Positions 8,185 through 28,753 of a stretch of DNA of 45,772 nucleotides are shown piece by piece. Made by a program: the position numbers and the translations under genes. How positions within the stretch are numbered: the stretch's first letter is position 1; every line of letters begins with the position of its first letter. The stretch covers positions 1 to 45,772 of the forward strand of contig SFCB01000243.1 in the NCBI GenBank assembly GCA_004367505.1, given 5' to 3'. The DNA comes from Chloroflexi bacterium OHK40. Lineage in GTDB: Bacteria > Chloroflexota > Chloroflexia > Chloroflexales > Chloroflexaceae. Below the pieces are notes generated by a model, which saw nothing but the letters and a program-made list of their open reading frames with translations, did not search any database and was not told where the DNA came from.

Positions 8185-8237
8185 AGCGTCGCATCTCTCC
8201 TTGAACGAGCGCTGAGTCGGCCCTGAAGCCCCGCTGA
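8185..8237 (-). promoter_or_regulatory. TCAG-type operator and -10 for the HMA/membrane gene
   Basis: Minus-strand boxes TCAG (8234-8237), TCAG (8223-8226), TCAG (8212-8215) and TCAA (8201-8204), each 11 bp apart, then 10 bp, then -10 GACGCT (8185-8190). Spacing is identical to the seven other copies. The start codon at 8083 is about 100 bp downstream. Confidence 0.7.
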
Positions 8238-8269
8238 GTGCCCACCCAGCCGGTTAGCATGCGCCGTGC

Positions 8270-8488
8270 TCAGGAACTCCGCTCCTTCACCCAGGTCGTG
8301 ACCAGGGGCGTGGTGACAATGAGCGTGAGCAGGCCAACCCACACCGCCCCACCGATGCGCGCAGTCAGTGTGTAATCGCCGGTCAAACTGGCGACCAGCA
8401 GGAAGAGGAGCGCGGCGCCGACCGAGATGGGCAGGTAGATGCGTGCGCTGCGCCTTGCGATCTCCCGTGTAACCTGTTCGTGTTCCAT
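8270..8488 (-). CDS. Small two-helix membrane protein
   Basis: A 72-residue protein with two transmembrane segments and a charged N-terminus (MEHEQVTREIARRSARIY), not assigned to a family. The ATG at 8488 is preferred over an upstream ATG at 8536 because AGGAGGAAGG sits just ahead of it and the longer N-terminus looks untranslated. It lies 72 bp behind CopA2 and is probably translated from the same transcript. A comparable small two-helix gene (37023-37232) follows the CPD-type ATPase, which hints at a recurring ATPase-associated small protein. Confidence 0.65.
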   Translation of the reverse strand: MEHEQVTREIARRSARIYLPISVGAALLFLLVASLTGDYTLTARIGGAVWVGLLTLIVTTPLVTTWVKERSS

Positions 8489-8560
8489 TGGTAGTGCTTG
8501 CCTTCCTCCTGCCGGCGAGCACGTCTGACGACCCACTCGCCGGCAGGACTGATGGAGGAA

Positions 8561-11143
8561 TTAGCGGCTCGTCGCCGGTCGCGGCTGCGTGGCCTTAGCC
8601 AGTTGCTCTTCCCCGCCGTGTCCCGAACCGCGTCGGAGCGAGGGCACGAAGCGTTTGAGCAGCAGCGTATTCAGCGTGACCGAGACCGAGCTGATCGCCA
8701 TGAAGGCCGCCGCCAACTCGGGGCTGACCACCAGGGCGAAGAAGGGGTAGAAGAGGCCCGCGCCGATCGGGATGCCGAGGATGTTGTAGGCGAAGGCCCA
8801 GAAGAGGTTCTGCTTGACCTTACGCATCGTGGCACGGGCCACCTCCAGCGCCACCACCACATCGCGGATGTCGTCGCGGATGAGGATGACATCGCCGGTT
8901 TCCTTGGCCACATCAGTGCCGGAGCCAATCGCCAGACCGACCTCAGCCTGAGCGAGGGCGGGCGCATCGTTGATCCCGTCGCCAACCATCGCCACCCGGC
9001 GGCCCTGGGCCTGCAGGCGCTTGACCTCGGCAGCTTTGTCCTGGGGCAACACCTCGGCGAGCACCCGGTCGATACCAACCTGCCGCGCGATCGCCTCCGC
9101 CGTGCGCCGGTTGTCGCCGGTGATCATTGCCACCTCCAGGCCCATGCGGTGTAGGGTCGCCACGGCCTCGGCGGCGTGCTCTTTGAGTGTGTCCGCCACG
9201 GCGATCAGCCCGGCGCCCTGCCCATCCATAGCGACAAACATCACCGTCTTGCCCGCAGCCTCCAGCTCCTCGGCCGCCGTGGCCAGGGCGACGATGCCGA
9301 TCCCTTCTTCTTCCATCAGCTTGCGGTTGCCAAGGAGCAGCGAGTGACCTTCAACCCGCGCGGTGATGCCTCGCCCGGGGACAGCGGCAAACTCTTCTGG
9401 TGCTGCCAGGGTGAGCGCGCGGGCCTGGGCGCCGCGCACAATTGCCTCGCCGAGCGGGTGCTCACTGTGCTGCTCGGCTGCGGCTGCCAGGCGCAACACA
9501 TCTTCTTCCGCGATACCAGACGCTGCAATGATGTCGGTCACTGACGGCTCGCCTCTGGTCAGGGTGCCGGTCTTATCGAAGACGATCGTCTGGAGCTTGC
9601 TCGCGTTCTCGATCGCCTCGGCGCCCTTGAAGAGCACGCCGTACTCGGCGGCCTTGCCGGTACCGGCCATCATGGCACTCGGCGTCGCCAGCCCCACGGC
9701 GCACGGGCAGGAGATGACCAGCACGGTGACCGAAAGCAGCAGCGCGAAGCCGAACACGCCGATGGCGCCTAGACTGTAGGGCGAGAGGATGAAGCTGGAG
9801 GCCGGGTCGAAGTACAGCTGGTAGCCAAAGAAGAACCAGAAGAGGAAGACCACCACGGCCAGTAGATGCACGCCGAGAATGAAGTGGCCGGCGACCCAGT
9901 CGGCCAGCTTCTGGATGGGTGCTTTGCTCGCCTGGGCATCCTCCACCAGCCGGATGATCTGCGCGAGCGCCGTCTCCTTGCCCACGCGGGTGGCGGTGAA
10001 GGCGAAGCTGCCGGTCTTGTTCATGGTGCCGCCGATCACTGCGTCACCGGCCCGCTTCTCAACCGGGATGCTCTCGCCGGTGAGCATCGACTCGTCCACG
10101 GCCGAGTAGCCCTCGACCACGGCGCCGTCCACCGGGATGCTCTCGCCGGGACGCACGCGCAGCAGATCGCCGGGGACCACCTCGTCGGCGGGCAACTCGA
10201 GCTCGACGCCGTCGCGCACCACGCGGGCGACCTTCGGCTGAAGCTTCATCAGCTTGCGAATAGCCTCCGAGGTGCGCCCGCGGGTCAAGGCCTCCAGCCA
10301 GCGACCCAGCACAATGAAGCCGGTCAGCAGGGCGGCGCTCTCGAAGAAGGTAGCGCCCTCGCCGCCAAAGCCGGCGTCGGGGAAGAGCGTGTTAATCACG
10401 GCGATGCCGTAGGCAGCACCAATGCCGGTGGCGTACAGTAAGTTCATATCCGTCACCCCGTGGCGCATGCCGCGCCAGGAGTTGACGAAGAACTGGCGTC
10501 CCGGGCCGAAGACGATCGGTGTGGTGAGCAGCCCAAGCACCCACTTCTCGGCAAGCCACGCGGGGACGAAGGCCTGAAGCGGGCCGAGCATGTCGTAGAA
10601 GGTGCCGATCATCACCAGCAGCCCGATCGTGCCGGCGATAAGGAGGTTGCGGCCCTGGCGGCGCACCTCTTCCGCGCGGACCTGCTGCTCACGATCCAGG
10701 GCGTCCACGACCCTTCCGCGCTCACTGGCCTCGTAGCCCACCTCGCGGATAGCCTGCTTGAGTCTCGCGACGCTGACCACGTCGGGGATATAGCCGACCC
10801 GGGCCGTTCCGAGGCCGAGATTGACCGTGGCTGCGGCGACGCCAGGTACTCCCGTGAGGGCTTTCTCGACGTGGGCGACGCACGAGGCGCAGGTCATTCC
10901 GCGCACGTCAAGGGTAAGCTCGACGGTGGGAACCTGGTAGCCGACGCCGCTGACCGCGGCGCGCAAGTCGTCGACGCTGGCGTGGGCGGGATCGTAGGTC
11001 AGGCGGGCGCTGTTTGTCCCCAGGTTGACAACAACTTCGTGCACGCCGGGGACCGTGCGCAACGCCTTCTCGACGTGGGCGACACAGGAGGCGCACGTCA
11101 TCCCCTGAACTGGGAGGGTGAGCTGCTCTGGTGATGCTGGCAT
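8561..11143 (-). CDS. copA: Cu(I)-exporting P1B-type ATPase with two HMA domains (CopA2)
   Basis: An 860-residue second CopA. Both N-terminal HMA domains carry MTCASC followed by VAHVEKAL. The membrane motif is CPC (about residue 478, [10 protein letters not shown]), with DKTGT near 523, SEHP and GDGINDAP intact. The loop between the helices around the CPC motif is unusually long and aromatic ([23 protein letters not shown]), unlike CopA1, so this pump may belong to a different subgroup with another affinity or rate, as seen for bacterial CopA1/CopA2 pairs. It is driven by the TCAG operator at 11202-11254 and precedes the small membrane gene at 8270. Confidence 0.95.
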
Positions 11144-11201
11144 AATATATCTCCTTGCCTGGCGGATGTCGCAGGACGGGTGTGTCCGCGGCTCTGGCAG
11201 G

Positions 11202-11254
11202 AGTATCAGGGGGGCCGCTGAGTCGTGCCTGAAGCGAAGCTGATTCCCCGCTGA
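11202..11254 (-). promoter_or_regulatory. TCAG-type operator and -10 for copA2
   Basis: Minus-strand TCAG boxes at 11251-11254, 11240-11243, 11229-11232 and 11218-11221, spaced 11 bp, then 10 bp and -10 GATACT (11202-11207). All four boxes are perfect. It is divergent from the operator at 11291-11343, with 36 bp between them. Confidence 0.75.
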
Positions 11255-11290
11255 GGAGGGTTGGGCCAGCTTCGCACGAGGCGCCTATCT

Positions 11291-11343
11291 TCAGGAACTG
11301 GACAGCCACGCCTCAGCCAGGACTCAACTGGGCCGACGATCCT
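11291..11343 (+). promoter_or_regulatory. TCAG-type operator and -10 for the YHS operon
   Basis: Boxes TCAG (11291), ACAG (11302), TCAG (11313) and TCAA (11324), each 11 bp apart, then 10 bp and -10 GATCCT (11338-11343). Two boxes are imperfect, so binding may be weaker than at the divergent copA2 site. Confidence 0.65.
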
Positions 11344-11389
11344 GAGTACCAGCGACGGATGGTCGCCCAGGTACCAGTGAGGTGTTTCC

Positions 11390-11671
11390 ATGCTGCACGA
11401 CCCAGTTTGTGGCCGGCGGATTAACCGTAACCAGGCCTATGCTCGCATCACCCATGAGCGTGTGATCTACTTTCTGTGTTGTCCCGTCTGTCAGGCGGAG
11501 TTTGCGGCCGCACCGGAGCGCTACGCCGACCCGAAGATCGGCGAGCCTGTGCGCGGGCCACGCGATGCCCGCCCCCATCACCATCACGAGGCGCCTGTGG
11601 AGCCCGACGACGAGGGCGAAACCCCAACTGAAGGCGGACGCGCGCGACCGCGGCGCAGGGCGCCGCGCTAA
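11390..11671 (+). CDS. YHS-domain protein with His-rich and basic tail
   Basis: A 93-residue protein with a YHS-type TRASH fold: DPVCGRRI at the N-terminus and FLCCPVCQAEF about 25 residues on. The Cys residues are the expected metal ligands; an additional Cys is present (CCPVC). The C-terminal half is low-complexity, with RPHHHHEAP followed by acidic and then Arg-rich stretches, so it could bind further metal. It is the first gene of a three-gene operon behind the TCAG operator at 11291-11343. YHS domains often accompany copper ATPases and act as metal-binding or sensing modules. Confidence 0.8.
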   Translation: MLHDPVCGRRINRNQAYARITHERVIYFLCCPVCQAEFAAAPERYADPKIGEPVRGPRDARPHHHHEAPVEPDDEGETPTEGGRARPRRRAPR

Positions 11672-11687
11672 CCCTGGAGTGTCAGCC

Positions 11688-11942
11688 ATGACCCTCAATG
11701 GCGAGGAGCGGCGCTTTGACCCCATCTGTGGGATGTGGCTCGCGCCCGAGCAGGTCGCGGCCACCTACATCTACATCGGCCACGTGTACAGCTTCTGTAG
11801 CGCTGAGTGTCGCGAGCTGTTCGCGCGCAAACCCGACGTCTATGTGGTGCGGCTCGCCTACGACCCGGAAGCATACATCGCCGACTTCTGCCCAGGTCAG
11901 CGAGCCGGCCAGGGCGACCGCTCCGAGCCATCAACCGGCTGA
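11688..11942 (+). CDS. YHS-domain protein
   Basis: An 84-residue single-domain YHS protein: DPICGMWLAPEQ, then FCSAECRELF about 25 residues later, giving three Cys ligands. I use the ATG at 11688, which begins directly before the domain and follows a GGAG sequence; the frame is open further upstream but overlaps the previous gene. The N-terminal motif is close to that of the YHS domain in the ATPase at 22883, whose [12 protein letters not shown] is nearly identical, suggesting a common origin. Second gene of the operon. Confidence 0.8.
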   Translation: MTLNGEERRFDPICGMWLAPEQVAATYIYIGHVYSFCSAECRELFARKPDVYVVRLAYDPEAYIADFCPGQRAGQGDRSEPSTG

Positions 11943-11960
11943 CCAGAAAGTGAGACTGCG

Positions 11961-12449
11961 ATGCTTGAACGAACCCCATTCCGCCTGTCACGCGCCTATG
12001 TCGTCCCGATCGTCATCGTGACGGTCGCCGTCCTGATCGGCGCCGGGATCAGGCTGCTCAGCACGGCGACAGCGGTCCAGCCGCCTACCTTACCGGCGGC
12101 CGAGACGGACGATCGCACCCGCGTGAGCGAGGGCGGCCAGGTCACGATCACTGCAACGTGGCAAGACCCTGCGCCGGGGCCGGCCTTTACGATCGTCATG
12201 GACACCCACGCGGTCGACCTCGACGGCTACGACCTGACACAGCTCGCCGCGCTGCGCGTCGACAACGGCCCCGAGCTCAAGCCGGTGAGCTGGGATGCGC
12301 CCGCCGGCGGGCACCACCGCGAGGGCACGCTCACGTTCCCCGCCGAGCAAGGTGGCAAACCCATCATCGACGTTACGACTCGGGCGGTTGAGCTCGTGGT
12401 CCGCGATGTGGCCGGTGTGCCTGTGCGGGTGCTCACCTGGCAGCGCTAG
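11961..12449 (+). CDS. Membrane-anchored extracytoplasmic protein, paralogue of 1235-1717
   Basis: 162 residues: a transmembrane segment at about 13-33, then the same domain as the 160-aa protein, with EGGQVTITATW, VMDTHAVDLDGYDL, GGHHREGTLTFP and RVLTWQR. Identity is high in these blocks and low in the anchor and linker. It closes the YHS operon, so it is presumably under the TCAG-type regulator, whereas its paralogue is under CTTGA boxes. Function unknown; the conserved DTH and GGHHR histidines are candidate metal ligands. Confidence 0.8.
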   Translation: MLERTPFRLSRAYVVPIVIVTVAVLIGAGIRLLSTATAVQPPTLPAAETDDRTRVSEGGQVTITATWQDPAPGPAFTIVMDTHAVDLDGYDLTQLAALRVDNGPELKPVSWDAPAGGHHREGTLTFPAEQGGKPIIDVTTRAVELVVRDVAGVPVRVLTWQR

Positions 12450-12765
12450 GAGCGTGGGACGGGAGTATTTGCCACACAGGTGTGCATTCTCCCACAAATT
12501 TCCGGTCAATTCAGGCCCTGACATGACCGATTTGGGCAAAAGTTGCACGCTCGGCGTGCTGTACTTTACAGTGAGCCCACGCTGGTTGGAGACACTCCTC
12601 CCTGCCTCTGTTACCCCACTTCGCCCCACACTCGCCTGCCGCCGGCGGCCTACCCCTCAACCAGCTGCCGCCGGCGGTGCATGTTGCTCGCCCGCGCGCA
12701 CTGTGAGCTCGCCCAGGAGGCGGCATCTTCAATGTGCGGCGCTTGAAACGATTGAGAGGTCGACG
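12450..12765. other. Intergenic region upstream of the GAPDH gene
   Basis: 316 bp without a gene. It contains an inverted repeat GCACGC-3-GCGTGC (12545-12559), two copies of a 12-bp palindromic sequence (12637-12677, listed separately) and a ribosome binding site GAGAGGT just before the GAPDH start. No convincing -35/-10 pair and no TCAG or CTTGA array were seen. Confidence 0.6.
12637..12677. repeat. Tandem copies of a GC-rich palindrome
   Basis: TGCCGCCGGCGG occurs at 12637-12648 and 12666-12677, 29 bp apart. Its core CCGCCGGCGG is self-complementary. Placed about 90-130 bp upstream of the GAPDH start, it looks like a pair of operator sites, though GC-rich palindromes also arise by chance in such DNA. 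Confidence 0.4.
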
Positions 12766-13803
12766 ATGAGGGTCCGAAAGGCTCGCGTACTGGTGAACGG
12801 CTATGGTGTTATTGGCAAGCGCATCGCCGACGCCGTGGTGGCGCAGGAAGACATGGAGCTGGTCGGCGTCGCCGACGTGGTCAGCGACTGGCGCATCAAG
12901 GTTGCGGCCACGAAGGGCTTCCGCGTCTTCGCCTCCACGGCGAGCGCGCTCGACCCGATGGGGGCGACCGGAGTGAAGCTTGCCGGGCAGCTCGACGACA
13001 TTCTCGGCGAGGTCGATGTTGTCGCCGATGCGACGCCCAAGAAGGTCGCGGCGACCAACTTTGAGCGCTACCAGGCCGCCGGCGTCAAGTCGATCTTCCA
13101 GGGCGGCGAAAAGCATAGCCTGACGGGGCACTCCTTCGTCGCCCAGGCCAACTACGCCTCAGCCCTTGGCCGAACTGCGACGCGGGTCGTCTCGTGCAAC
13201 ACGACCAGCATTGTGCGCACGCTGGGCGCTTTGCGCGAGGCCGGACTGCTGCGCAAGGCCCGCGGTGTACTCGTGCGTCGCGCCACCGACCCATGGGAGT
13301 CGGATCACTCGGGCGTGATGAATACCGTCGTTCCCGAGCGCGAGATTCCCTCGCACCAGGGGCCTGACGCACAGACGGTGCTCCCAGATCTCGACGTGGT
13401 CACCATCGCCGTTGTCGCTGCTCACACGACGAGTCATCTACACGCCTGGAGCGTCGAACTGATCCGCCCAGCAACCAGGGAGGAGGTACTCGACGCGTTT
13501 CGCTCTGCGCCGCGGATCGCATTCCTCCGGGCTGATCAGGGGCTGGTCGCCCTCAACAGCACCCACGAGCTGATGGCCGACCTGGGGCGGTCGCGCGGCG
13601 ATATGTGGGAGGTCGGGCTCTGGGAAGATAGCCTGACAGTGCGTGGCGAGGAGTTGTTCTACAACTATCAGGTCTACAACCAGGCGATCGTGGTCCCGGA
13701 GACGATTGACGCCATCCGTGCCCTGACCGGCATCGAGGAGGATGGGTATGCGTCGATCGCGCGGACCGACGCAGCCCTCGGCCTCACAGACAGCTTTGTC
13801 TGA
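12766..13803 (+). CDS. gap: Type II (archaeal-type) glyceraldehyde-3-phosphate dehydrogenase
   Basis: A 345-residue enzyme of the archaeal GAPDH family, distinct from the common bacterial GapA. It oxidises glyceraldehyde 3-phosphate to 1,3-bisphosphoglycerate, usually with either NAD or NADP. The N-terminal Rossmann motif is NGYGVIGKR, FQGGEKH is the family signature, and the catalytic cysteine is Cys144 in SCNTTS. RRATDPWESDHSG and SHQGPDAQTVLP match the phosphate and substrate regions. The start at 12766 follows GAGAGGT. The gene has no evident link to copper, but GAPDH's catalytic Cys is a classic target of copper and peroxide, so a resistant or substitute isozyme is conceivable. It converges with two-component system 1. 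Confidence 0.88.
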   Translation: MRVRKARVLVNGYGVIGKRIADAVVAQEDMELVGVADVVSDWRIKVAATKGFRVFASTASALDPMGATGVKLAGQLDDILGEVDVVADATPKKVAATNFERYQAAGVKSIFQGGEKHSLTGHSFVAQANYASALGRTATRVVSCNTTSIVRTLGALREAGLLRKARGVLVRRATDPWESDHSGVMNTVVPEREIPSHQGPDAQTVLPDLDVVTIAVVAAHTTSHLHAWSVELIRPATREEVLDAFRSAPRIAFLRADQGLVALNSTHELMADLGRSRGDMWEVGLWEDSLTVRGEELFYNYQVYNQAIVVPETIDAIRALTGIEEDGYASIARTDAALGLTDSFV

Positions 13804-13819
13804 TCGGCTGGCTGGTCTT

Positions 13820-15244
13820 TCATGAGGGCAAGGCAGGCAGGTGGACGACCACCTGGGTGCCTTGCCCTGGGGCGCTCGCAATGTCGATCGTGCCCTCGTG
13901 CTGCGCGACGATCCACTGGGCGATCGGGAGGCCGAGACCGGTGCCGCCAGGGTCACGGCCGCGGGCCGGGTCCGCGCGGTAGAAGCGCTCAAAGACGTGG
14001 GGAAGGTCGTCTGGCGCAATGCCCACTCCGGTATCGCATACGCGAATTTCGGCGCGGTCACCCGCTTGCCGGAGCCCGACGGTCACGGTGCCGCTGGGCG
14101 GCGTGTACTTCACGGCATTGTCGAGCAGGATCAGGACGAGCTGGCGCAGGCGATCTTCGTCGCCGCAGGCGCGCACCGGCTCGAACGGGTCAAGCTGGAG
14201 CACACGCCCCTTGGCGAGTGTGCGACCGGTCTGAAACGTGTCGAGCACGACAGCATCGAGATCGACGGCGTCTCGCCGAATACTGATGCCCGCATCGGCG
14301 CGGGCAAGGGCCAGCAGGTCGGCCACCAACCTGGTGAGCCGGTCAGTCTCCCGCGCCGCCTCATCGAGGGCCTCGATCCGCTCTTCGCTGGGGAGCTCAG
14401 GCCGCCGACGGAGCAACTCCAGGTTGCCCTGAATGGCGGTGAGGGGCGCGCGTAGCTCGTGGGAGGCGTCAGCGACGAAGCGCTGCTGGGCGCGGTACGC
14501 CTGCTCGATGCTGGCGAGCATCGTGTTGAAGGTAGTAGCCAGGGTGCCGAGCTCGTCCTGCTGGCGCGGCTCGGGGATGCGGCGAGAGAGGTCGCGGGAG
14601 GCGGTAATGGCGCGCGCCGTCGCCACCATGTGCGTGACCGGGTGGAGCGCCTGGCCAGCAACGATCAAGCCGGCGAGCAGCGCGACCGCTAATCCCAGCG
14701 CCCCGAGGCTGAACAACATCATCCGGAAGGTGGCAATACCGGCGTCGAGCCGGCCCAAGGGCGAGACCGCCTCGACATAGCCGCTAAGTGTTCCGTCACT
14801 CGAGCGCAGCGGGAGCACAAAGGCGCGCCAGCGTTCGCCTCCACTGGTCACCGTACCGAAGGCGCTTCCCGACGGTTGCTCGGGCGGCGTCAGTGGCGCC
14901 AGAGGGGCTAGCCGGTCGTAGGCGGGGCCAGCGGGCGCAGCCAGCACCGCCTGGGGGTCAATCTGTGGCGCAAGTTCTCCGTTTGGCGTGTCTTCGCGCA
15001 GGGCAGCATCAGGGCCGTAGAGCCGCAACACCACCGCAAAGCCACCGCTGCTCTGCGCGAGGTGCGGAGGTTCGTCCATCACCGTCGCTTCGGCAACGGC
15101 GTGGCCTGCGCTCGTGATGAGAATCCGGTCGAGATCGTCGTACTGGCCCCGGCTGTGCACTGCGTAGGCCAGGGTTCCAACGACGAGGAGCACAAGGGCG
15201 CAGAGCGCGGCGCACCAGAGGGCCAGGCGTAGCCGAAGCGACAT
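13820..15244 (-). CDS. Sensor histidine kinase of two-component system 1
   Basis: 474 residues in the classical order: membrane helix (about 7-28), extracytoplasmic sensor domain, second helix (about 175-200), HAMP, HisKA with the phosphorylated His in SHELRAPLTA (near 262), and HATPase_c with ILLDNAVKYTP, DTGVGI and GTGLGLPI. The sensor domain contains few Cys or Met, so the ligand is not obvious from sequence. Its start overlaps the stop of the response regulator gene, indicating coupled translation. The context makes it a CusS/CopS-like kinase, most likely responding to extracytoplasmic copper. Confidence 0.92.
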   Translation of the reverse strand: MSLRLRLALWCAALCALVLLVVGTLAYAVHSRGQYDDLDRILITSAGHAVAEATVMDEPPHLAQSSGGFAVVLRLYGPDAALREDTPNGELAPQIDPQAVLAAPAGPAYDRLAPLAPLTPPEQPSGSAFGTVTSGGERWRAFVLPLRSSDGTLSGYVEAVSPLGRLDAGIATFRMMLFSLGALGLAVALLAGLIVAGQALHPVTHMVATARAITASRDLSRRIPEPRQQDELGTLATTFNTMLASIEQAYRAQQRFVADASHELRAPLTAIQGNLELLRRRPELPSEERIEALDEAARETDRLTRLVADLLALARADAGISIRRDAVDLDAVVLDTFQTGRTLAKGRVLQLDPFEPVRACGDEDRLRQLVLILLDNAVKYTPPSGTVTVGLRQAGDRAEIRVCDTGVGIAPDDLPHVFERFYRADPARGRDPGGTGLGLPIAQWIVAQHEGTIDIASAPGQGTQVVVHLPALPS

Positions 15245-15927
15245 CAGGGGTCCTCCTGACGCAGGACATAGCCGGCCCCGCGGATGGTGTGCAACAATCG
15301 GCTCTCGCCCCCGCTCTCGAGCTTCTGGCGCAACTGCTTGACGTAGACCTCCACGACGTTCGCGTTGCCGCCGAAATCGTAGCCCCAGACCCGGTCAAGC
15401 AGCAACTCCTTCGGTAACACCTGCTCGGCATGGCGTAGGAATTCGTGGAGGAGCTTGAACTCGAGGCTGGTGAGGGTCACCGAGCGTTCCCCCCGGAAGA
15501 CTGCGTGACGCGAGGGCTCCAGCGCCAGGTCGGCATAGCGTAGCACCTGCGGCTGCTCAGCCTCGCGCCGGCGGAGCAGGGCGCGAATGTGCGCCAGCAG
15601 CACCTCGAAGCTGAAGGGTTTGACCATGTAGTCGTCGGCGCCGGTCTCCAGTCCTTGCACCTGCTCGGCGGGAGTGTCGCGGGCCGTCAGCATTAGCACG
15701 GGCAGCGTCGCATCAGCCGCCCGCAGCCGGCGCAGCACCTCCAGTCCATTGAGGCCCGGCATCATGATGTCCAGCACAACCAGATCGGGCGGCGCCTCGC
15801 GGGCTGCGGCGAGCCCTGCGGGACCGTCAGCCGCGACCGTGACCGTGTACCCTTCATAAGACAGGCCGCGGCGCAGAACACTCGTTACGGCCGGATCGTC
15901 GTCGACGACAAGAATACGCGTCACCAC
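15244..15927 (-). CDS. OmpR-family response regulator of two-component system 1
   Basis: 227 residues: receiver domain with acidic pocket D9-D10, phospho-acceptor Asp53 (LDIMMPG) and the conserved Lys in VKPFSF, followed by a winged-helix DNA-binding domain (YDFGGNANVVEVYVKQLRQKL). The start is a GTG; two consecutive GTG codons (15927 and 15924) are possible, both served by AAGGAGG. It lies behind a DUF2933 gene with a TCAG operator and also has its own promoter (15979). It is the best candidate regulator of the eight TCAG operators, since phased 11-bp direct repeats are typical of this family. Confidence 0.92.
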   Translation of the reverse strand: MVTRILVVDDDPAVTSVLRRGLSYEGYTVTVAADGPAGLAAAREAPPDLVVLDIMMPGLNGLEVLRRLRAADATLPVLMLTARDTPAEQVQGLETGADDYMVKPFSFEVLLAHIRALLRRREAEQPQVLRYADLALEPSRHAVFRGERSVTLTSLEFKLLHEFLRHAEQVLPKELLLDRVWGYDFGGNANVVEVYVKQLRQKLESGGESRLLHTIRGAGYVLRQEDP

Positions 15928-16058: not shown

Positions 16059-16298
16059 CTAGTGGCGGTGCCCCTGGTCGTTGCCTCCGCCCCCGTGGCC
16101 GCCATGGCCGCCCATCATAAAGAGGTGCATAAGCGGGCAGAGCAGGAAGATGGCGTACGGGAGCAGGCTGATGACGTGGGCCGTGTGCGCGACCAGGGCG
16201 TAGATCACGGCGGCGCTGACGAGCGCGAGGATGGCGGCGCCCGCCGGCGAGCGCATCAGCGCGCGGAAGCCACCGGGGGCGGACTTGGTGTGGTTCAT
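16059..16298 (-). CDS. DUF2933-type small membrane protein, Gly/His/Met-rich tail
   Basis: 79 residues with a DUF2933-like core of two hydrophobic segments, the motif LLPYAIFLLCPLMHLFM, and a C-terminal tail MGGHGGHGGGGNDQGHRH. Cys, Met and His are grouped at the end of the second helix and would suit Cu(I) or Ag(I) binding. I choose the ATG at 16298 (GGAGGAA 5 bp ahead) over one 27 bp upstream. A second copy is at 28799-29050. Function is not established for the family; co-occurrence with copper ATPases is frequent. It leads the operon containing two-component system 1. Confidence 0.85.
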   Translation of the reverse strand: MNHTKSAPGGFRALMRSPAGAAILALVSAAVIYALVAHTAHVISLLPYAIFLLCPLMHLFMMGGHGGHGGGGNDQGHRH

Positions 16299-16347
16299 CG
16301 GTTCCTCCATCAGGCGGCGGTTCACATCGGGCCCGAGTACCTGCCGG

Positions 16348-16400
16348 ATCGTGCGTCTGGTGGCTGAGGCTGCGCTGAGTCCGAGCTGAGCGCGTGCTGA
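16348..16400 (-). promoter_or_regulatory. TCAG-type operator and -10 for DUF2933 and two-component system 1
   Basis: Four perfect minus-strand TCAG boxes at 16397-16400, 16386-16389, 16375-16378 and 16364-16367, then 10 bp and -10 CACGAT (16348-16353). Divergent from the operator at 16435-16487, with 34 bp between the two arrays. Confidence 0.75.
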
Positions 16401-16434: not shown

Positions 16435-16487
16435 TCAGCCAGGATTCAGGGCATCCTCAGCGGGGCCTCAGGGAGGCGGGGCACACT
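16435..16487 (+). promoter_or_regulatory. TCAG-type operator and -10 for the cupredoxin operon
   Basis: Four perfect TCAG boxes at 16435, 16446, 16457 and 16468, then 10 bp and -10 CACACT (16482-16487). The predicted transcript starts about 75 bp upstream of the cupredoxin ATG. Confidence 0.75.
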
Positions 16488-16565: not shown

Positions 16566-17036
16566 ATGTCATCCCAGCCCAAGCCCTCCGCCAGTTGTCA
16601 CCAGCACGGGCCCCGCGGCCGACGCGCTCCCGCTCGGCAACCCGCCTTTGGCCCGCGCCTCGTCGCCTTCCTCGTGATCGTCGTCCTGGTCGTCGGCGGC
16701 GCCGTATGGCTCCTGCGTCCGCCCGCAGCGACGGTGCGTGCCGAACAGGATGTCACCGTGACAATGAGCGGTTTCACGCCCGGCGACATCACCGTCGCCG
16801 CAAACCGGGTCGCCACCATTCGTCTGGTGAACCCCGACAGCAATATGCATACAGACGGCGGCGGTGTCCATCAGCTGGCCATCCCCGCTTTGGGCGTGGA
16901 CATCAAGGTGCAGCCGCGCAGCGAGGCATTGGTCACCATCCCAGCCGCCGCGCCGGGCCGCTACGCGTTTTACTGTGACGTCTGCTGCGGCGGCAAGGAG
17001 AATCCTATGATGCAGGGAACCCTGATCGTCGGCTAG
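16566..17036 (+). CDS. Membrane-anchored cupredoxin with a CuA-like metal loop
   Basis: 156 residues: a basic, His-containing cytoplasmic N-terminus, one membrane helix (about 32-50), and an extracytoplasmic cupredoxin domain. The upstream ligand is His102 (GGVHQL). The C-terminal loop is YCDVCCGGKENPMMQG, which fits the CuA pattern C-x3-C-x3-H-x2-M of cytochrome oxidase subunit II and nitrous oxide reductase with Cys137, Cys141 and Met148, except that the second His is Glu145; an extra Cys140 is present. It could bind one or two copper ions outside the membrane. It starts the operon with ccdA, the ligase and a methyltransferase. Confidence 0.82.
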   Translation: MSSQPKPSASCHQHGPRGRRAPARQPAFGPRLVAFLVIVVLVVGGAVWLLRPPAATVRAEQDVTVTMSGFTPGDITVAANRVATIRLVNPDSNMHTDGGGVHQLAIPALGVDIKVQPRSEALVTIPAAAPGRYAFYCDVCCGGKENPMMQGTLIVG

Positions 17037-17059
17037 CATCGCTCACGGAGGCTACCTGT

Positions 17060-17767
17060 ATGCAACTGACCCTCCCTGCCGTGATCGGCGCCGGGCTGGT
17101 CGACAGCCTGAACCCCTGCGCCTTCGCCTTGCTCCTGGTCTTTGTCGCCACCACCCTGAGCATGGTGCAGCATCAGGATGACCTGGCCGGCGTCACCGCC
17201 GCGCGCCGCCGGCTGCTGGGCCTGGGCAGCATCTACATCGCCGGGATCTTCCTGACGTACCTGGCCCTCGGGCTTGGGCTCCTCGGCGCGATGGGGCTGG
17301 CGAAAAGCCTCAGCGGCACCCACCTGGTGAGCCGGGCGGCCGCGCTGATCGCCCTCGGCCTGGGCCTGCTGGCGATGCAGGAGGCGCTGCTGCCCGAACT
17401 CGGGACGCGCCTGACCGCCCATATCGACCTCCAGCGGCTACGTGGTCTGGTGAGCCGGCTCCGCGCCCCCGGGCTGTTCCTCGCCGGCGTGCTGGTTGGG
17501 CTCTGTACCGTGCCTTGTGCCGGCTCGGTCTACCTGGCGGTGCTGGCCCTGCTCGCGGCTCAGACGACTCTGCTGGCGGGGGTGGGCTACCTGGTGCTGT
17601 ACAACCTGGTCTTTGTCGCCCCGCTCCTCGTCATCCTGGCCCTGGCGGCGAGCCCGACGGTCTATCGCGGCATGGCCCGTTGGCAACTGCACCATCGCCC
17701 CTCCCTGAAGCTGGCCGTCGGTGTGGCGACCCTTGCCGTCGGGTTTCTCACGCTCGTGGTGGTGTAG
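17060..17767 (+). CDS. CcdA/DsbD-like transmembrane thiol transporter
   Basis: A 235-residue polytopic membrane protein with the CcdA pattern: Cys20 in DSLNPCAFALL and Cys153 in CTVPCAGS, each at the start of a helix, plus Cys149. CcdA moves reducing equivalents from cytoplasmic thioredoxin across the membrane to extracytoplasmic thiol proteins, for cytochrome c maturation or for keeping copper-binding cysteines reduced. Located 23 bp behind the CuA-like cupredoxin, it is well placed to keep that protein's three Cys in the thiol state. Confidence 0.85.
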   Translation: MQLTLPAVIGAGLVDSLNPCAFALLLVFVATTLSMVQHQDDLAGVTAARRRLLGLGSIYIAGIFLTYLALGLGLLGAMGLAKSLSGTHLVSRAAALIALGLGLLAMQEALLPELGTRLTAHIDLQRLRGLVSRLRAPGLFLAGVLVGLCTVPCAGSVYLAVLALLAAQTTLLAGVGYLVLYNLVFVAPLLVILALAASPTVYRGMARWQLHHRPSLKLAVGVATLAVGFLTLVVV

Positions 17768-22766: not shown

Positions 22767-22819
22767 TAAGCCACCCTTAAGGGCCGCCTCAGCCCGGACT
22801 CAGCGCCGCTATCTACCCT
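22767..22819 (+). promoter_or_regulatory. TCAG-type operator and -10 for the YHS-ATPase
   Basis: Boxes TAAG (22767), TAAG (22778), TCAG (22789) and TCAG (22800), spaced 11 bp, then 10 bp and -10 TACCCT (22814-22819). Two boxes have A at position 2, as does one box at 28712, so the box is better written TMAG. Confidence 0.7.
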
Positions 22820-22882: not shown

Positions 22883-25552
22883 ATGAGCTCACCCGTCTCT
22901 GTGCGCACCACGGTGCGCGACCCGGTCTGCGGGATGGAGTTTGCCCCCGAGCAAGCCGCGGCAACGCGGACCGTTCCTGGGCTTGTGCTCCATTTCTGCT
23001 CCAACGACTGCGCCGCCACCTTCGACCGCAACCCGGCCCACTACCTCGCGCCTGCATCGCCAACGACCGGCGTTCCCCCCGGCGGAGCCGCTCCGGCTCG
23101 TCTTGTGCTGCCGCTCGCTGAACTCCAGCAGGCCGGCTCCCCGGCCCTCGAGCGCGCTGTCGGCCTGGTGCCGGGGGTGACGCATGTGAATGCAAACGTC
23201 AAAGGCCGGCAACTCATTATCGAGTACGACCCGGCACAGGCGAGCGTCGCGGCCCTGCTGGGCGCTGTGCGCGCCGCCGGCTTCCGCCCCGCCGATCATA
23301 CTCTGCGCCTGAAGGTGAGCGGGCTTTACTGCGCCGAGTGCGTCGCCCGGATCGAGGACGCGCTCAAGGCCGTGCCCGGCGTCCTCGACGCGACCATGAG
23401 CGCTGCCTCCAACGAGGTGCGCGTCGTCTACGCGCCGGTCATCGGCGACCTAGGGCTGCTGACCCGCGCAGTGGAGCACGCCGGCCCCTACACGGCCGCC
23501 CGCGCCGCCGAGGCCAGCGCGCCTGAGCAGGACCGCGAGGCTGAGGCGACCGCCGCCGAGTATCGCTCGCTGATGCGCAAGTGGTGGTTCGGCGCCGCCG
23601 TTGGCGTCCCTACCATGATCCTCTCCTATCCCTATCTGATTCCCGGCCTGCGCGACTGGCTCCCCCGTGGCAGTGAGGCCCTCTGGTGGACCTGGTTCGT
23701 GATGGGCATCGCCAGCCTGGCCGTGCTGGTTTACTCCGGCAGCCAGTTCTTCGTCGGCATGTGGGAGGGGCTCAAGCACCGCTCAGCCAATATGCACACG
23801 TTGATCGCCCTGGGCACCAGCGTGGCCTGGCTCTACTCCACAATCGCCCTGTTCTTTCCCCAACTCTTCCCTGACGAGGCGATGACCGATGTCTACTACG
23901 ACGTCACCGTCGTGGTCATCGCCCTGGTGGTCCTCGGTCTGGCCCTCGAGATCAAGGCCAAGGGGCGTACCTCCGAGGCGATCAAGAAGCTGATCGGGCT
24001 CCAGCCCCGCACCGCCCGGGTGCGCCGAGGCGGCCAGGAGCAGGATATTCCTGTCGAGGAGGTGCTGGCCGGCGACTTGATCGTGGTGCGCCCCGGCGAG
24101 AAGATCCCGGTGGACGGCGTGGTGGTCGAGGGCCAGTCAGCGGTGGACGAGAGCATGATCACCGGCGAGTCGCTGCCCGTGTCAAAGAAGGTGGAGGACG
24201 AAGTAATCGGCGCCACAATCAATAAAACCGGCGCCTTCGTCTTCCGCGCCACGAGGGTCGGCAAAGACACGGCGCTCGCCAATATCATCAGGCTGGTGCA
24301 GGACGCCCAGGGCAGCAAAGTGCCCATCCAGCGGGTTGTCGACCGGGTCTCAGCCTACTTCACCCCGGCGGTGATGATCCTGGCGATCGTGGGCTTTGTG
24401 GTCTGGTACGTCTTCGGCCCGGCCCCCGCCCTCACCTACGCCTTGATCGTCGCGGTGACGACGCTGATCATCGCGTGCCCCTGCGCGCTGGGCATGGCCA
24501 CGCCGATGAGCCTGACCACGGGTGTCGGCCTGGGCGCCCAACACGGCATTCTGATCCGCTCGGGCGACGCGCTGCAGACCGCGGCAAAGCTCAACGCCGT
24601 GGTGCTGGACAAGACGGGCACGATAACCGAGGGCAAGCCGGCGCTGACCGACATCGTCCTGCTCGAGGGCTACGACGAGCACGAGGTACTGCGCCTGGCC
24701 GCCACCGTCGAGCGGGCCTCCGAGCACCCACTGGCCCAGGCGATCGTTGAGGGGGCCGAGGCGCGCGGGCTGGCCGCGGGTACGCTCGCCGGCTTTGAGG
24801 CTGTCCCCGGCCACGGCGTGATCGCCAGCGTGGATGGGCGCGAGCTGCAGATCGGCAACCGCAAGCTGCTGGAGCGGGCGGGGATCGACCCGGGCCGCCT
24901 GGAGGCCGAGGCGCAGCGCCTTGCCGACAACGGCAAGACGCCAATGTTTGTTATCCTTGACGGGCGGGCCGCCGGCATCCTGGCCGTGGCCGACACGGTG
25001 AAAGCGGACTCGCAGGCCGCCATCGCCGCGATGAAGCGGCTGGGCCTGGAGGTGGTGATGATCACCGGTGACAACGAGCGCACCGCGAAGGCGATCGCGC
25101 GGCAAGTGGGCGTGGACCGGGTGCTGGCCGAGGTGCTGCCCCAGGACAAGGCGCTCAACGTGCAGCGGCTCCAGCTCGAGGGCAAGAAGGTCGCGATGGT
25201 GGGCGACGGCATCAACGACGCGCCGGCCCTGGCCCAGGCCGACGTGGGGCTGGCGATTGGCACGGGCACCGATGTGGCGATCGAGGCGGCGGACATCACC
25301 CTGATCAAGGGCAGCCTGACCGGGGTGGTCACCGCCATCCAGATCAGCCGGGCGACGATGGCCAACGTCTATCAGAACCTCTTCGGTGCCTTCATCTACA
25401 ATACGCTGGGCCTGCCGGTCGCCCTGGGCGTGCTCTACCCCTTCACCGGGCTGCTGCTCTCGCCGCTGCTGGCCGCCCTGGCCATGTCATTCAGCAGCGT
25501 GACGGTGATCAGTAACGCCAACCGGCTGAAGCGCTGGAAGCCCCGTGTCTAG
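22883..25552 (+). CDS. P1B-type ATPase with N-terminal YHS domain and two HMA-like domains
   Basis: 889 residues. Residues 12-55 are a YHS domain ([22 protein letters not shown]). The next domain (about 72-140) has the HMA fold pattern but no CxxC. A second HMA domain carries [11 protein letters not shown]. The membrane metal motif is CPC (near 531, [10 protein letters not shown]), DKTGT is near 576 and GDGINDAP follows, so it should transport Cu(I) or Ag(I). The YHS-HMA-HMA arrangement differs from both CopA proteins. It is driven by the TCAG operator at 22767-22819 and followed after 56 bp by a cupredoxin, the probable extracytoplasmic acceptor. Confidence 0.92.
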
Positions 25553-25608
25553 AATGAGCGCACGCGGGGCGTGTCGAACGCGCCCCGTTGCAATGAAGGA
25601 GCAACGTC

Positions 25609-25986
25609 ATGTCCCCCGACAAGATTGCCGTGATCGTCGGCGGCCTCGCCGCCATCGCCCTGATCGTCTGGTTCTTCTGGCTGGTGAAGAAGCCCGGTGT
25701 GCGCGCCACGCGCAGCGCTGGAGGTTACCAGGAATTGATGGTGCTGGTGAAGGGTGGCTACACGCCCGATGTGATCGTCGTGGAGCGGGGCAAGCCGGTG
25801 CGGCTCAACTTTGTGCGGGCCGAGTCGTCGGCCTGCTCCGAGATGGTGTTGCTGCCCGACTTTAAGAAGAGCGCGCAGCTGCCCGAGGGCGAGACGGTGC
25901 CGGTGGAGTTCCTGCCGGACACTCCGGGCGAGTATGAGTTCCAGTGCCAGATGGGTATGCTGCGCGGCAAGCTGATCGTCGAGTGA
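25609..25986 (+). CDS. Small membrane-anchored cupredoxin
   Basis: 125 residues: one N-terminal helix (about 7-26) and a cupredoxin-like domain. Candidate ligands are Cys76 (SSACSEM), Cys113 and Met115/Met117 (FQCQMGMLRG); the C-x-M-x-M-x-RG ending is typical of the cupredoxin_1 family. It probably accepts copper outside the membrane from the ATPase encoded 56 bp upstream. A hairpin at 26023-26055 follows and likely ends the transcript. Confidence 0.85.
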   Translation: MSPDKIAVIVGGLAAIALIVWFFWLVKKPGVRATRSAGGYQELMVLVKGGYTPDVIVVERGKPVRLNFVRAESSACSEMVLLPDFKKSAQLPEGETVPVEFLPDTPGEYEFQCQMGMLRGKLIVE

Positions 25987-26022
25987 GAAAGCTGCGATTT
26001 GGAGAGCGTGCCACTTCATACA

Positions 26023-26055
26023 GAGCTGCTTGTTTTGCCACGAGACAAGCAGCTC
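26023..26055 (+). terminator. Hairpin after the ATPase-cupredoxin operon
   Basis: A perfect 11-bp stem (26023-26033 with 26045-26055) and an 11-nt loop, 37 bp past the cupredoxin stop. No T run follows, so the terminator call rests on position and stem strength. Confidence 0.55.
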
Positions 26056-26089
26056 ATTCGTGCACTTCATGCCAGACTTTTCCAGGAAA

Positions 26090-26118
26090 TTGACAAACGC
26101 TTGGCAGCTTTGTATCGT
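26090..26118 (+). promoter_or_regulatory. Consensus sigma-70-type promoter for the PAP2 gene
   Basis: TTGACA (26090-26095), a 17-bp spacer and TATCGT (26113-26118). This is the only near-consensus -35/-10 pair I found in the window and it lacks TCAG or CTTGA boxes, so the gene is probably constitutive or separately regulated. Confidence 0.6.
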
Positions 26119-26196
26119 GCAGTGAGCTCGTCTCACGCCACCGGCCGAACGCCTCATGCTACACGAGTACACAGCACACCAAGGGGACACATCGCG

Positions 26197-26898
26197 ATGG
26201 TTGAACTGCGCTTTCCTCCGCGTATCCTGCTTATTACGGCCATCGTCGCCGTCGTTGTCTTTGTGCTACTGGGCTTGTTGTACACCATTGGCGGCCCGGT
26301 AAATCGTGTAGACGTGTGGCTCGGGACTCTGCTTCATGAACTAAACGATCGTCATATTGATTGGATCACGTTAAGCATGAATGCAGTGTCATTCTTTGGC
26401 GGAAATGGCCTGCTCTTTATTGCGGCAGCTGTAGTCGCTTACCTTGTGTTTCGGCGCGCTTGGCCAGAACTGTTTCTATGGATAGTAGCTGTTGGCGGCG
26501 TGATCGTCTTCAACCGTGTCCTCAAGGAATACTTTGAGGTGCTGCGCCCAGTCGTTGGGCATGAGGATCGCTTTGAAGAAAGCACGGGTTTTCCAAGCGG
26601 GCACGCGATGATCGCGCTCGTCACCTACGGGCTGCTGGCCGCACTTGTCGCACCTCAGACAGCCGCCCGATCAGCGAGGCTGTCGGTCTGGGGAGGGGCG
26701 AGCCTGCTGATCCTGCTGATCGGCTTTAGCCGGCTCTACCTGAGCGTTCACTACCTCAGCGATGTCATCGGCGGCTATGCTGCGGGGTTAGCCTGGTTGG
26801 CTGCCTGCCTGTGGGTTTACCTCGTCGTTGCCAGGCGTTATAGTGGCCTGCGCTCACGACACGAGATTACCGGTATTCCAGACTCGCCGGTTGGCTGA
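26197..26898 (+). CDS. PAP2-family membrane phosphatase
   Basis: 233 residues with five to six membrane helices and the three PAP2 motifs: KEYFEVLRP, PSGHAM and SRLYLSVHYLSDV. These enzymes remove phosphate from lipid phosphates such as undecaprenyl diphosphate, phosphatidic acid or phosphatidylglycerol phosphate. The ATG at 26197 is preferred because it opens the first helix. Base composition is more AT-rich than that of neighbouring genes and its promoter is different, so it may be a later arrival or simply outside the copper regulon. Confidence 0.88.
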   Translation: MVELRFPPRILLITAIVAVVVFVLLGLLYTIGGPVNRVDVWLGTLLHELNDRHIDWITLSMNAVSFFGGNGLLFIAAAVVAYLVFRRAWPELFLWIVAVGGVIVFNRVLKEYFEVLRPVVGHEDRFEESTGFPSGHAMIALVTYGLLAALVAPQTAARSARLSVWGGASLLILLIGFSRLYLSVHYLSDVIGGYAAGLAWLAACLWVYLVVARRYSGLRSRHEITGIPDSPVG

Positions 26899-26933
26899 GC
26901 GGAGCCTCATGTGAAGCTGAGCGGGGCGATGTG

Positions 26934-28613
26934 CTACCTTCCCCCACGCAGGATACTCCAGGCGAGCACGATTCCCAGCAGCAGGGCTACGACAAAGCCG
27001 AAGGCGAATAGCGCGCCGGCCCAGCGCTCAATCCCTGCGGGGTGAAAGACCGCCAGCAGCACGGCCAGGCCGACGATAAAGGCGGCGGCTAGCATGCCGA
27101 GCACGAGCCGATTGGCCAGCCGTTCGAGGCGCTGCAAGATCGGCTCGACACCTTCTGGACGCACGCCGACCTGCAGCCCCCCACGCTCGAGGTCGGCTAC
27201 GATCTGGCGGAACTGCGCGGGGAGCTCCAGGCCGAGCCTGGCCATTCCACTGCCCGCCGACGCCAGCTCGCGCGCTAACCGCAGGGGCGCGTAGCGCTGC
27301 TGCAGCAGCCGCTGGGCGTAGGGCGCGATCGCCTCGGCGAGCCGGAAATGCGGGTCGAGCTGCGCACCCATCCCCTCGCTCATGATCAGCGTCTTCAGCA
27401 GCAGGGCCAGATCTGCCGGCAGCTGGAGCCGGTGGGTGCGGATGGTCGCGAAGGCGGCCTCGAGCAACGGCCCGAGGGCAATCTCGCCGATCGCGCGTCC
27501 GTAGTACGGGGTGAGCAGCCGCTCCAGATCAGCGCGCAGAGCCCGCCGATCCACCCGCTGGCGTGCAAAGCCCAGGGCGAGCAACGCCTCGACGAGCTGC
27601 TCGTAGTCGCGGCTCAGCACCGCCAGAATGACGGCCGCCAGGGCGTCACGAGCGGACTCGTTGACCATCCCAACCATGCCAAAGTCGATTAGCCCGATCC
27701 GCCCATCAGGCTCGATAAAGAGGTTGCCTGGGTGGAGATCGGCGTGGAAGAGGCCATGCTCGAAGATCATCTGCAGGATCGCATCGGTGGCCCGTTGGGC
27801 CAGGGCGCTGCGGTCGATGCCCGCGGCGTCGAGGGCGGCGATGTCGGTAACCTTGAGCCCGCTGATACGCTCCAGTGTGAGTACCTGATCAGTGGAATGG
27901 GACCAAAAGACCCGCGGGATACGGATGTTCGTGTTGGTGGAGAAGTTCGTTGCGAAGCGCTCGACCGTGCGCGCCTCCTGGGCGTAGTCAAGCTCGGTGC
28001 GGATCGTGCGCACGAACTCGTCGGCAAGGGCAACCAAGTCGTACTGCTCGGCGGCCGGCCAGCGCCGCTGCGCGGTCTGGGCGAGGCCCCGCAGCAAGGT
28101 GAGGTCGGCCTCGACCTGGGCGACGACGCCCGGACGGCGCACCTTGATCACCACCGCTGTGCCGTCTGGTAGCGTCGCCGCGTGGGCCTGTCCGATCGAA
28201 GCGGCAGCCAGCGGCTCCCGCTCGAACGTGGCGAAATGGCCCGCCAGAGGGCCGCCGAGCTCCGCCTCGACCACAGCGACAATGGCATCCCCTGACACGC
28301 TGGGAACCTCATCCTGGAGCAGGGCGAGCTCGCGCTGATAGGCCGGCGGGAGCAGGTCGGCCCTGGTCGAGAGCAGCTGGCCGAGCTTGGCGAAGGTCGC
28401 GCCAAGCTCCTCGATCCCGAGACGGAGATGTTCGGGCGGTGTATATGGGGTGTCGCGAGGGGCGTGGCCGAGCAGGCCGCGGTGAAACGGCACGTAGCGC
28501 TCCAGGCCGAAGACGTTGACGAGATATCCAAGACCGTGACGGGCGAGGACTTCGGCAATCTGCCGTGAGCGTGCAGCGGCATTGACCGCAGCCGGTTCCT
28601 GTGTTGACGACAT
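26934..28613 (-). CDS. UbiB/ABC1-family kinase-like protein
   Basis: 559 residues. The family KxGQ motif appears in FAKLGQLLSTRADLLP, the Ala-rich loop in AAASIGQAHAA, the nucleotide-binding Lys in VVIKVRRPG, and the catalytic region in HADLHPGNLF and LIDFGMVG. Two C-terminal membrane helices complete the UbiB layout. UbiB proteins support isoprenoid quinone biosynthesis or lipid transport, probably as ATPases. It has its own TCAG operator (28641-28693), so a quinone-related function appears to be co-induced with copper defence. Confidence 0.9.
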   Translation of the reverse strand: MSSTQEPAAVNAAARSRQIAEVLARHGLGYLVNVFGLERYVPFHRGLLGHAPRDTPYTPPEHLRLGIEELGATFAKLGQLLSTRADLLPPAYQRELALLQDEVPSVSGDAIVAVVEAELGGPLAGHFATFEREPLAAASIGQAHAATLPDGTAVVIKVRRPGVVAQVEADLTLLRGLAQTAQRRWPAAEQYDLVALADEFVRTIRTELDYAQEARTVERFATNFSTNTNIRIPRVFWSHSTDQVLTLERISGLKVTDIAALDAAGIDRSALAQRATDAILQMIFEHGLFHADLHPGNLFIEPDGRIGLIDFGMVGMVNESARDALAAVILAVLSRDYEQLVEALLALGFARQRVDRRALRADLERLLTPYYGRAIGEIALGPLLEAAFATIRTHRLQLPADLALLLKTLIMSEGMGAQLDPHFRLAEAIAPYAQRLLQQRYAPLRLARELASAGSGMARLGLELPAQFRQIVADLERGGLQVGVRPEGVEPILQRLERLANRLVLGMLAAAFIVGLAVLLAVFHPAGIERWAGALFAFGFVVALLLGIVLAWSILRGGR

Positions 28614-28640
28614 AGAACCTCCTTGAGACCTGTTGCCGGC

Positions 28641-28693
28641 AGCATTCCACAGCTGGCTGATGCTTGCCTGAGCCGCGGCTGAACGCCGGCAGA
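28641..28693 (-). promoter_or_regulatory. TCAG-type operator and -10 for the UbiB-like gene
   Basis: Minus-strand boxes TCTG (28690-28693), TCAG (28679-28682), TCAG (28668-28671) and TCAG (28657-28660), then 10 bp and -10 AATGCT (28641-28646). It abuts the divergent operator at 28701, with only 7 bp between the arrays. Confidence 0.7.
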
Positions 28694-28700
28694 GGCAGAT

Positions 28701-28753
28701 TCAGGGAGCCCTAAGAGCAGCCTCAGCGCAGCCTCAGGGGGTTGCTCGATGAT
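28701..28753 (+). promoter_or_regulatory. TCAG-type operator and -10 for the eight-gene operon
   Basis: Boxes TCAG (28701), TAAG (28712), TCAG (28723) and TCAG (28734), 11 bp apart, then 10 bp and -10 GATGAT (28748-28753). Together with the divergent array it makes eight phased boxes in about 81 bp. Confidence 0.75.

Follow-up and report, generated by a model that had tools for sequence, protein, structure and literature searches.

A probable four-repeat TCAG operator adjoining a -10-like hexamer and its putative copper-responsive regulator in Chloroflexota

The window analyzed here, a stretch of 45,772 nucleotides of contig SFCB01000243.1 from Chloroflexi bacterium OHK40, contains a set of genes preceded by the same DNA element, in which four TCAG-like boxes at a pitch of 11 bp are followed, after 10 bp, by a hexamer of the form NANNNT. 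This locus raises the question of which protein reads the element and with what effect on the genes behind it. The window contains nine such arrays, which very probably represent the docking address of a neighbouring signal-driven regulator, here termed response regulator 1 (RR1), that would switch these genes on.

Geometry and position of the arrays

An earlier note on this DNA had described eight operator-promoter units. All eight were confirmed, each with four TCAG-like boxes at 11-bp pitch, a gap of 10 bp and a hexamer whose second and sixth letters are A and T, respectively, and 25 of their 32 boxes are perfect TCAG (at least 23 had been claimed). The number of sites had to be raised to nine, as a scan of both strands allowing up to two mismatches in the 16 box letters revealed an additional unit at 34420-34472 (+) which had been missed. 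Over all nine sites, 27 of 36 boxes are perfect.

Four perfect boxes are present at 11202-11254 (-; hexamer GATACT), upstream of CopA2 (8561-11143), at 16435-16487 (+; CACACT), upstream of cupredoxin and DsbD-like genes (16566-17767), and at 16348-16400 (-; CACGAT), upstream of the genes for a DUF2933 protein, RR1 and sensor kinase 1 (HK1), where autoregulation is probable. The boxes read TCAG TCAG TCAG TCAA at 8185-8237 (-; GACGCT), upstream of an HMA/membrane gene (7358-8083) and an Lgt-like gene (6512-7309), and TCAG ACAG TCAG TCAA at 11291-11343 (+; GATCCT), upstream of a YHS gene (11390-11671). The unit at 22767-22819 (+; TACCCT) precedes a YHS-ATPase gene (22883-25552) and has boxes TAAG TAAG TCAG TCAG, and that at 28641-28693 (-; AATGCT) precedes a UbiB-like gene (26934-28613) with boxes TCTG TCAG TCAG TCAG. 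The unit at 28701-28753 (+; GATGAT; TCAG TAAG TCAG TCAG) lies upstream of a DUF2933 open reading frame (ORF; 28799-29050) and the genes that follow it, and the newly found unit (boxes TCAG TCAG TCAA TCAA; hexamer CATGCT) lies 57 bp ahead of the start of a P1B ATPase gene (34529-36937). Gene calls are chosen ORFs backed by Pfam.

In eight of the nine sites, the end of the hexamer is separated from the next start codon by 23 to 102 bp. The exception is the 28701 unit, whose hexamer (28748-28753) overlaps an ORF starting at 28749, so that the DUF2933 ORF, which has GAGGAG upstream, is more likely to be the first target. The first gene of the eight-gene operon named previously needs re-annotation. 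Equally frequent matches in coding DNA had been set beforehand as the outcome that would count against the operators. Instead, eight of the nine arrays are wholly intergenic in a window that is 82% coding by our own choice of ORFs, and the remaining one overlaps the end of a patatin-like gene by 22 bp. None of the nine sites has a hexamer resembling TTGACA at the expected -35 place, which is occupied by AGCGCT, AGGCAC, AGCCAG, AGCGCA, AGCGGG, AGCCCG, AGGCAA, AGCGCA and AAGCCC.

Chance expectation was estimated from 300 dinucleotide shuffles of the window. Arrays with at most two mismatches in 16 letters occurred in 11 registers corresponding to nine distinct sites (shuffle mean 0.02, maximum 1), and arrays with NANNNT at +10 occurred nine times (shuffle mean 0.0067, maximum 1). 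Among all 256 tetramers at pitch 11 with at most one mismatch, TCAG and its reverse complement CTGA gave six arrays each, the only other tetramers with arrays being the overlapping phase shifts TGAG, GCTG, CTCA and CAGC (two each). Among pitches of 5 to 24, pitch 11 alone produced TCAG arrays at this stringency. The NANNNT hexamer occurred at offset 10 in nine of nine sites, and none of the other offsets between 0 and 35 showed it in more than one site. The window contig, which represents 0.66% of the 6.93-Mb genome of the organism, holds eight of its 11 exact three-box places (registers of five arrays). Genome-wide pattern searches with the reversed pattern as a control found three boxes with at most one mismatch at 35 places (control, 3), and three boxes plus the hexamer with at most two mismatches at 29 places, 15 of them on the window contig (control, 5).

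Genes behind the arrays

The genes directly behind the arrays encode CopA2; the HMA/membrane protein with Lgt; the YHS protein; DUF2933 with RR1 and HK1; the cupredoxin with the DsbD-like protein; the YHS-ATPase; the UbiB-like kinase; the second DUF2933 protein with the products of the following genes; and a third ATPase. The content expected of a copper regulon is present, since the three target ATPases exceed the cut-off of 397 for the copper-translocating family TIGR01511 (602.7, 603.3 and 609.4) and two cupredoxin genes are included; YHS proteins are also among the targets. In L031, one of the loci selected as described below, the gene for a YHS-ATPase 65% identical to that of the window begins 55 bp after the end of one hexamer. 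First genes behind arrays elsewhere encode YtkA-like, DoxX, SHOCT and DUF5676 proteins, and several have no family match.

The two DUF2933 paralogues are each the first gene behind an array, at 16059-16325 (-; 67.9 bits, cut-off 21) after the 16348 promoter and, likely, at 28799-29050 (+; 86 bits, cut-off 21) after the 28701 promoter. A further P-type ATPase gene with HMA domains (1906-4467, -) has no four-box array ahead of it and is perhaps under other control.

The candidate regulator

RR1 (15244-15927, -) comprises a receiver and a Trans_reg_C domain and is the proposed binder of the arrays, and HK1 (13820-15244, -), with HAMP, HisKA and HATPase_c domains, is its proposed partner. Both RR1 domains score above their cut-offs (PF00072, 109 bits; PF00486, 85.5 bits), placing the protein in the OmpR/PhoB family. 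Its best NCBIfam match is the CopR/SilR heavy-metal regulator family TIGR01387 (223.5, below the curated cut-off of 279.2), and the best match of HK1 is the heavy-metal sensor kinase family TIGR01386 (225.2, below the curated cut-off of 292.55). The earlier assignment of the sites to the OmpR/PhoB type is favoured by the direct repeats at pitch 11, the fixed 10-bp gap and the lack of a visible -35 element. Likewise, the domains of RR1 and the arrays that track its clade favour the proposal, made in the same note, that it is the likely activator.

In a tree of 105 homologues, the clade of RR1 comprises 22 rows (support 100/95), of which 20 have arrays beside them. The neighbouring Chloroflexota group of 26 rows, covering 396.9 kb of DNA with 21 of the 26 loci at least 10 kb long, has a single array (L051), with two mismatches and no hexamer. 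Array labels were set by hand from the array scans, L051 being left unlabelled, and require seven changes on the tree compared to a mean of 27.0 for shuffled labels (0 of 500 shuffles as low). Outside the RR1 clade, arrays occur beside L176, L177 and L178, beside the paralogue from the same genome (L182) and in a seven-row Bacillota clade. A looser matrix scan, whose threshold was set 2 bits above the value from a single mononucleotide shuffle of each locus, gave weak matches in six loci beyond the labelled ones and the RR1 clade (L036, L046, L061, L066, L073 and L078; 11.4 to 20.5 bits, where the best arrays score 43 to 51) and no match in 66 of the 102 loci scanned.

The recognition helix contains KQLRQ or SQLRQ in the six displayed rows of the RR1 clade besides RR1 itself, and RYLRQ in many homologues without arrays. 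No recognition-helix code is claimed from this, since L032, L176, L182 and the array-bearing Bacillota rows differ. From sequence, RR1 is the best candidate regulator for the window, and the TCAG box is shared more widely.

The paralogue of RR1 in the same genome (contig C247) has its own array with hexamer TAAGCT (L182:11014, +), located at the end of its kinase gene and before a 152-aa ORF. Bacillota loci from Paenibacillus and Desulfosporosinus with TCAG arrays by a related regulator are L095, L098, L099, L101, L105, L108 and L109. These arrays precede the regulator itself (L095, L105 and L109) or a gene for a PMT-type membrane protein, which Pfam identifies as YkcB-like in L098 and which begins alike in L101 and L108. 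Many of them end 10 bp ahead of AATAAT, CATAAT, GATAAT or TATGCT.

Conservation in other genomes

In a set of 61 genomes consisting of the genome of this organism and 60 relatives, four-box arrays with at most one mismatch were found in 37 genomes (control, 1), and arrays with the hexamer and at most two mismatches in 46 (control, 2). Among the best 80 of 548 loci with RR1 homologues, the best named homologues come from Chloroflexota metagenome-assembled genomes, which suggests that the window DNA belongs to this phylum. Arrays with at most two mismatches occur in ten of these 80 loci (L031, L032, L051 and the seven Bacillota loci). L031 and L032, the two best homologues listed there (70% and 57% identical), have three and four arrays, respectively, with NANNNT at +10 in six of the seven.

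A search of 400 Chloroflexota genomes with RR1 gave 17 matches at E ≤ 1e-88, from which 14 previously unseen neighbourhoods were taken by the position of the RR1 homologue only. Arrays with at most two mismatches are present in 12 of these 14 loci, and in 30 of the 32 arrays NANNNT follows after exactly 10 bp, whereas six other pitches gave no array in the same loci. L282 has six arrays, and its contig (G119:C68) contains ten places with at most one mismatch of 18 letters. The full pattern with at most one mismatch is present in 17 of 17 RR1-positive genomes compared to 59 of the 383 others (Fisher p 1.1e-13, with relatedness ignored, as in all statistics here, and with the genome of this organism among the 17). 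In total, 76 of the 400 sampled genomes match (control, 3), a count in which tandem-repeat matches such as those in G102, G150 and G345 were kept.

The 22 loci of the RR1 clade (369.5 kb) contain 53 arrays, of which 49 have the hexamer at +10. As arrays were picked by their boxes alone, the hexamer offset counts as a separate finding, with the reservation that the box search had already turned up three (L171, L172 and L175) of the five loci from relatives of the same order. From the four misses, those in L174 and L285 are register ties whose other register has the hexamer, and L032:3513 (TACAAG) and L277:7610 (CTGCTG) are real. Perfect boxes number 39, 38, 40 and 40 at positions 1 to 4 of the 49 arrays, and none of the 49 has a perfect box where a box 0 or a box 5 would lie. 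The unit consensus is approximately yTCAGs, the boxes being strongly conserved while the 7-bp gaps vary. Beyond a margin of 80 bp around the arrays, the 369.5 kb contain five places with two exact boxes and three with three boxes (at most one mismatch), none of which has NANNNT at +10. Weaker sites such as L285:11408 are uncounted, and the rule therefore concerns recognizable boxes. Within this scope, the rule is unusually strict for the family, with one repeat number, one pitch and one distance (49 of 53 arrays).

Other arrangements of the boxes were also observed. In genus g20 of the same order (L130 to L135 and L187), rows of at least four TCAG-like boxes at pitch 11 are found that lack the hexamer at +10. 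A second conserved array type, with TAAC or TAAT followed by three TCAG boxes, 10 bp and TAnnnT, occurs in 16 of the 61 genomes searched. In the genome of this organism it lies at G000:C8:3464-3516 (-; L183:3516, -), before the gene for a 597-aa protein without a clear family and near a regulator similar to response regulator 2 (RR2).

Proposed mechanism and alternatives

It is quite probable that phosphorylated RR1 binds each array as two adjacent dimers that replace a -35 element, and thereby activates a metal-defence regulon, probably for copper, including its own operon. The 53-bp unit would then be an activator operator joined to a promoter core. HK1 would phosphorylate RR1, and RR1 would occupy all four TCAG half-sites, arranged head to tail along the same side of the helix; by analogy with the family, four repeats would hold two tandem dimers. 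Since the last box ends 10 bp before the NANNNT -10 element, the bound protein would sit where a -35 element would be and could recruit RNA polymerase from there. The hexamer position in the 53 arrays and the missing TTGACA-like hexamer in the nine window sites correspond to a PhoB-like class II layout, the transcription starts being predicted. The signal is most likely excess copper outside the cytoplasm, and a single signal would turn on the metal-defence cluster and the operon of the regulator together. With the 16348 array ahead of DUF2933, RR1 and HK1, the system would amplify itself.

Several observations weigh against this proposal. RR1 and HK1 both score under the cut-offs of the heavy-metal families, and the three target ATPases score above the cut-off of the cadmium family as well, though lower than against the copper family. 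Only 15 of the 44 non-window arrays within the RR1-clade loci have a homologue of a window gene starting at most 260 bp downstream. L031 and L032 account for three of these (out of seven arrays) and the loci taken by homology for 12 (out of 32), while the five arrays of L171 to L175, from relatives of the same order, account for none; a copper function is thus not shown everywhere. Two of the 14 homology-chosen loci lack a clear array: near RR1, L287 has only a two-box match on the opposite strand that stays below threshold, and the match in L289 is weaker and of the TAAG type. The full pattern also occurs in 59 of the 383 RR1-negative genomes. When array clusters outside the window were selected by their boxes alone, 12 of 49 had NANNNT at +10 (2.5 expected); offset 10 is the highest of 36 offsets, with 9 and 8 at offsets 16 and 21. 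This frequency, together with the other surroundings of some arrays (genus g20), rules out a single class for all arrays. Finally, TCAG arrays beside L176, L177, L178, L182 and the seven Bacillota rows indicate that other family members, in this and another phylum, also have the box, which is therefore not private to a copper regulator and does not by itself name RR1.

One alternative is that another response regulator, such as RR2 (41030-41833) or a paralogue elsewhere in the genome, binds the boxes, or that several regulators share them by cross-talk with RR1 as one user. The C247 paralogue, which is 58-59% identical to RR1 and has its own array with TAAGCT, agrees with this explanation, as do the array on contig C8 near an RR2-like gene (50%) and the RR2-like genes near arrays in L177 and L178. 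However, RR2 has a match with at least 67% identity across more than 230 residues in 12 relatives, and seven of them (G020, G028, G030, G032, G033, G035 and G049) lack the full pattern at up to two mismatches, which makes RR2 less likely as a general binder, whereas all five relatives with RR1 at 62% or more (G011, G022, G044, G045 and G057) have it. In G011, the array and RR1 share one contig, and the RR2 match is on another. The association of arrays with 20 of the 22 rows of the RR1 clade also speaks against RR2 or a paralogue as the binder, and we regard this alternative as unlikely.

Still less probable is that the arrays are repressor sites at which the regulator blocks RNA polymerase until copper relieves the block. 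The arrays do overlap the region that the polymerase would contact, and the OmpR/PhoB family includes repressors, for example ArcA at many sites (PMC3798270). Nevertheless, none of the nine sites retains a -35-like hexamer for an unaided promoter, and a simple block needs no fixed distance between array and hexamer; contact activation by RR1 fits both features better. An origin by chance or as simple tandem repeats without a regulatory role, as seen in some matches among the 400 genomes (G102, G150 and G345), is negligible for the window arrays given the shuffle mean of only 0.02, conservation mainly confined to the boxes while the 7-bp gaps vary, and a hexamer distance kept in 49 of 53 arrays.

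We also consider, with somewhat less than even confidence, that RR1-type regulators activate only with two dimers on exactly four repeats, forming an all-or-none switch, and that the 4 × 11 + 10 frame may predate the spelling of the box. Weak 4 × 11 + 10 matches with boxes of the TCAC, TCAT or ACAG type are found near other response regulators at L066:9685 (+), L066:10726 (+), L073:9904 (+) and L078:9489 (+).

Relation to characterized regulators

The mechanism class, OmpR/PhoB-type activation beside the -10 element, is already known. The PHO boxes of PhoB from E. coli and PhoP from Streptomyces likewise consist of 11-nt direct repeat units, with several in a row in some promoters (PMC4415409). 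The E. coli PHO box is usually located near the -10 element and substitutes for the -35 element, and the window arrays, which stand beside a -10 without a -35, have the layout of E. coli PhoB promoters (PMC4971064). In contrast, the PHO core is CTGTCAT or GTTCACC and serves phosphate genes, whereas the window has TCAG and metal genes, and membership in the PHO regulon was rejected on these grounds. In Streptomyces PhoP operators, the number and organization of units vary (PMC4415409). E. coli ArcA sites also have direct repeats spaced by 11 bp centre to centre, with four in some sites. The number of ArcA repeats, however, ranges from two to five, and their spacing (mostly 11 bp) and position vary as well, compared to four only and one hexamer distance here (PMC3798270).

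The closest copper analogue found is CopR of Corynebacterium glutamicum, a copper regulator of the OmpR family whose activated targets are copper genes and the operon that encodes it. Its repeats, TGAAGATTTnnTGAAGATTT, have an 11-bp pitch by arithmetic, but it has a single site with two repeats and a different box, compared to four repeats here (PMC3353115). The heavy-metal subfamilies TIGR01387 (CopR/SilR regulators) and TIGR01386 (sensor kinases) provide the best-scoring models for RR1 and HK1, respectively, both below cut-off. By sequence, PhoP of Mycobacterium tuberculosis is the closest to RR1 among regulators with a solved structure. Some of its half-sites end in TTTCAGC, ATCAGC or CACAGC, but its sites differ in that two repeats of 9 bp are separated by 1 to 5 bp and a third lies at a variable distance (PMC3413638). 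The motifs of Streptomyces CutR (TAWATAAA; PMC12802291) and C. glutamicum MprA (TKTTAAGAAM; PMC12113857) do not match the TCAG box. A direct-repeat motif of an unknown factor is mentioned for Caldicellulosiruptor (PMC8579813). Among the matches listed from the open-licence literature, judged by titles and the beginnings of abstracts, none described an operator with four TCAG repeats or the operator of a copper two-component system from Chloroflexota. Within this scope, we rate as new the TCAG box, the fixed repeat number and the spread in Chloroflexota.

Implications

The arrays offer a code by which the operators of a two-component regulon can be read from sequence, in a phylum where, in our view, gene regulation has received little experimental work. 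With matches in 76 of the 400 sampled genomes, regulon members can be proposed across Chloroflexota, and uncharacterized genes, including those for DUF2933, DUF5676, the UbiB-like kinase and small HMA proteins, are placed in a metal-defence context. The strict geometry also offers a clean case for asking why a member of this family might need two dimers. If the frame indeed predates the spelling of the box, the code by which this large family recognizes DNA could be deciphered from natural pairs of regulators and sites.

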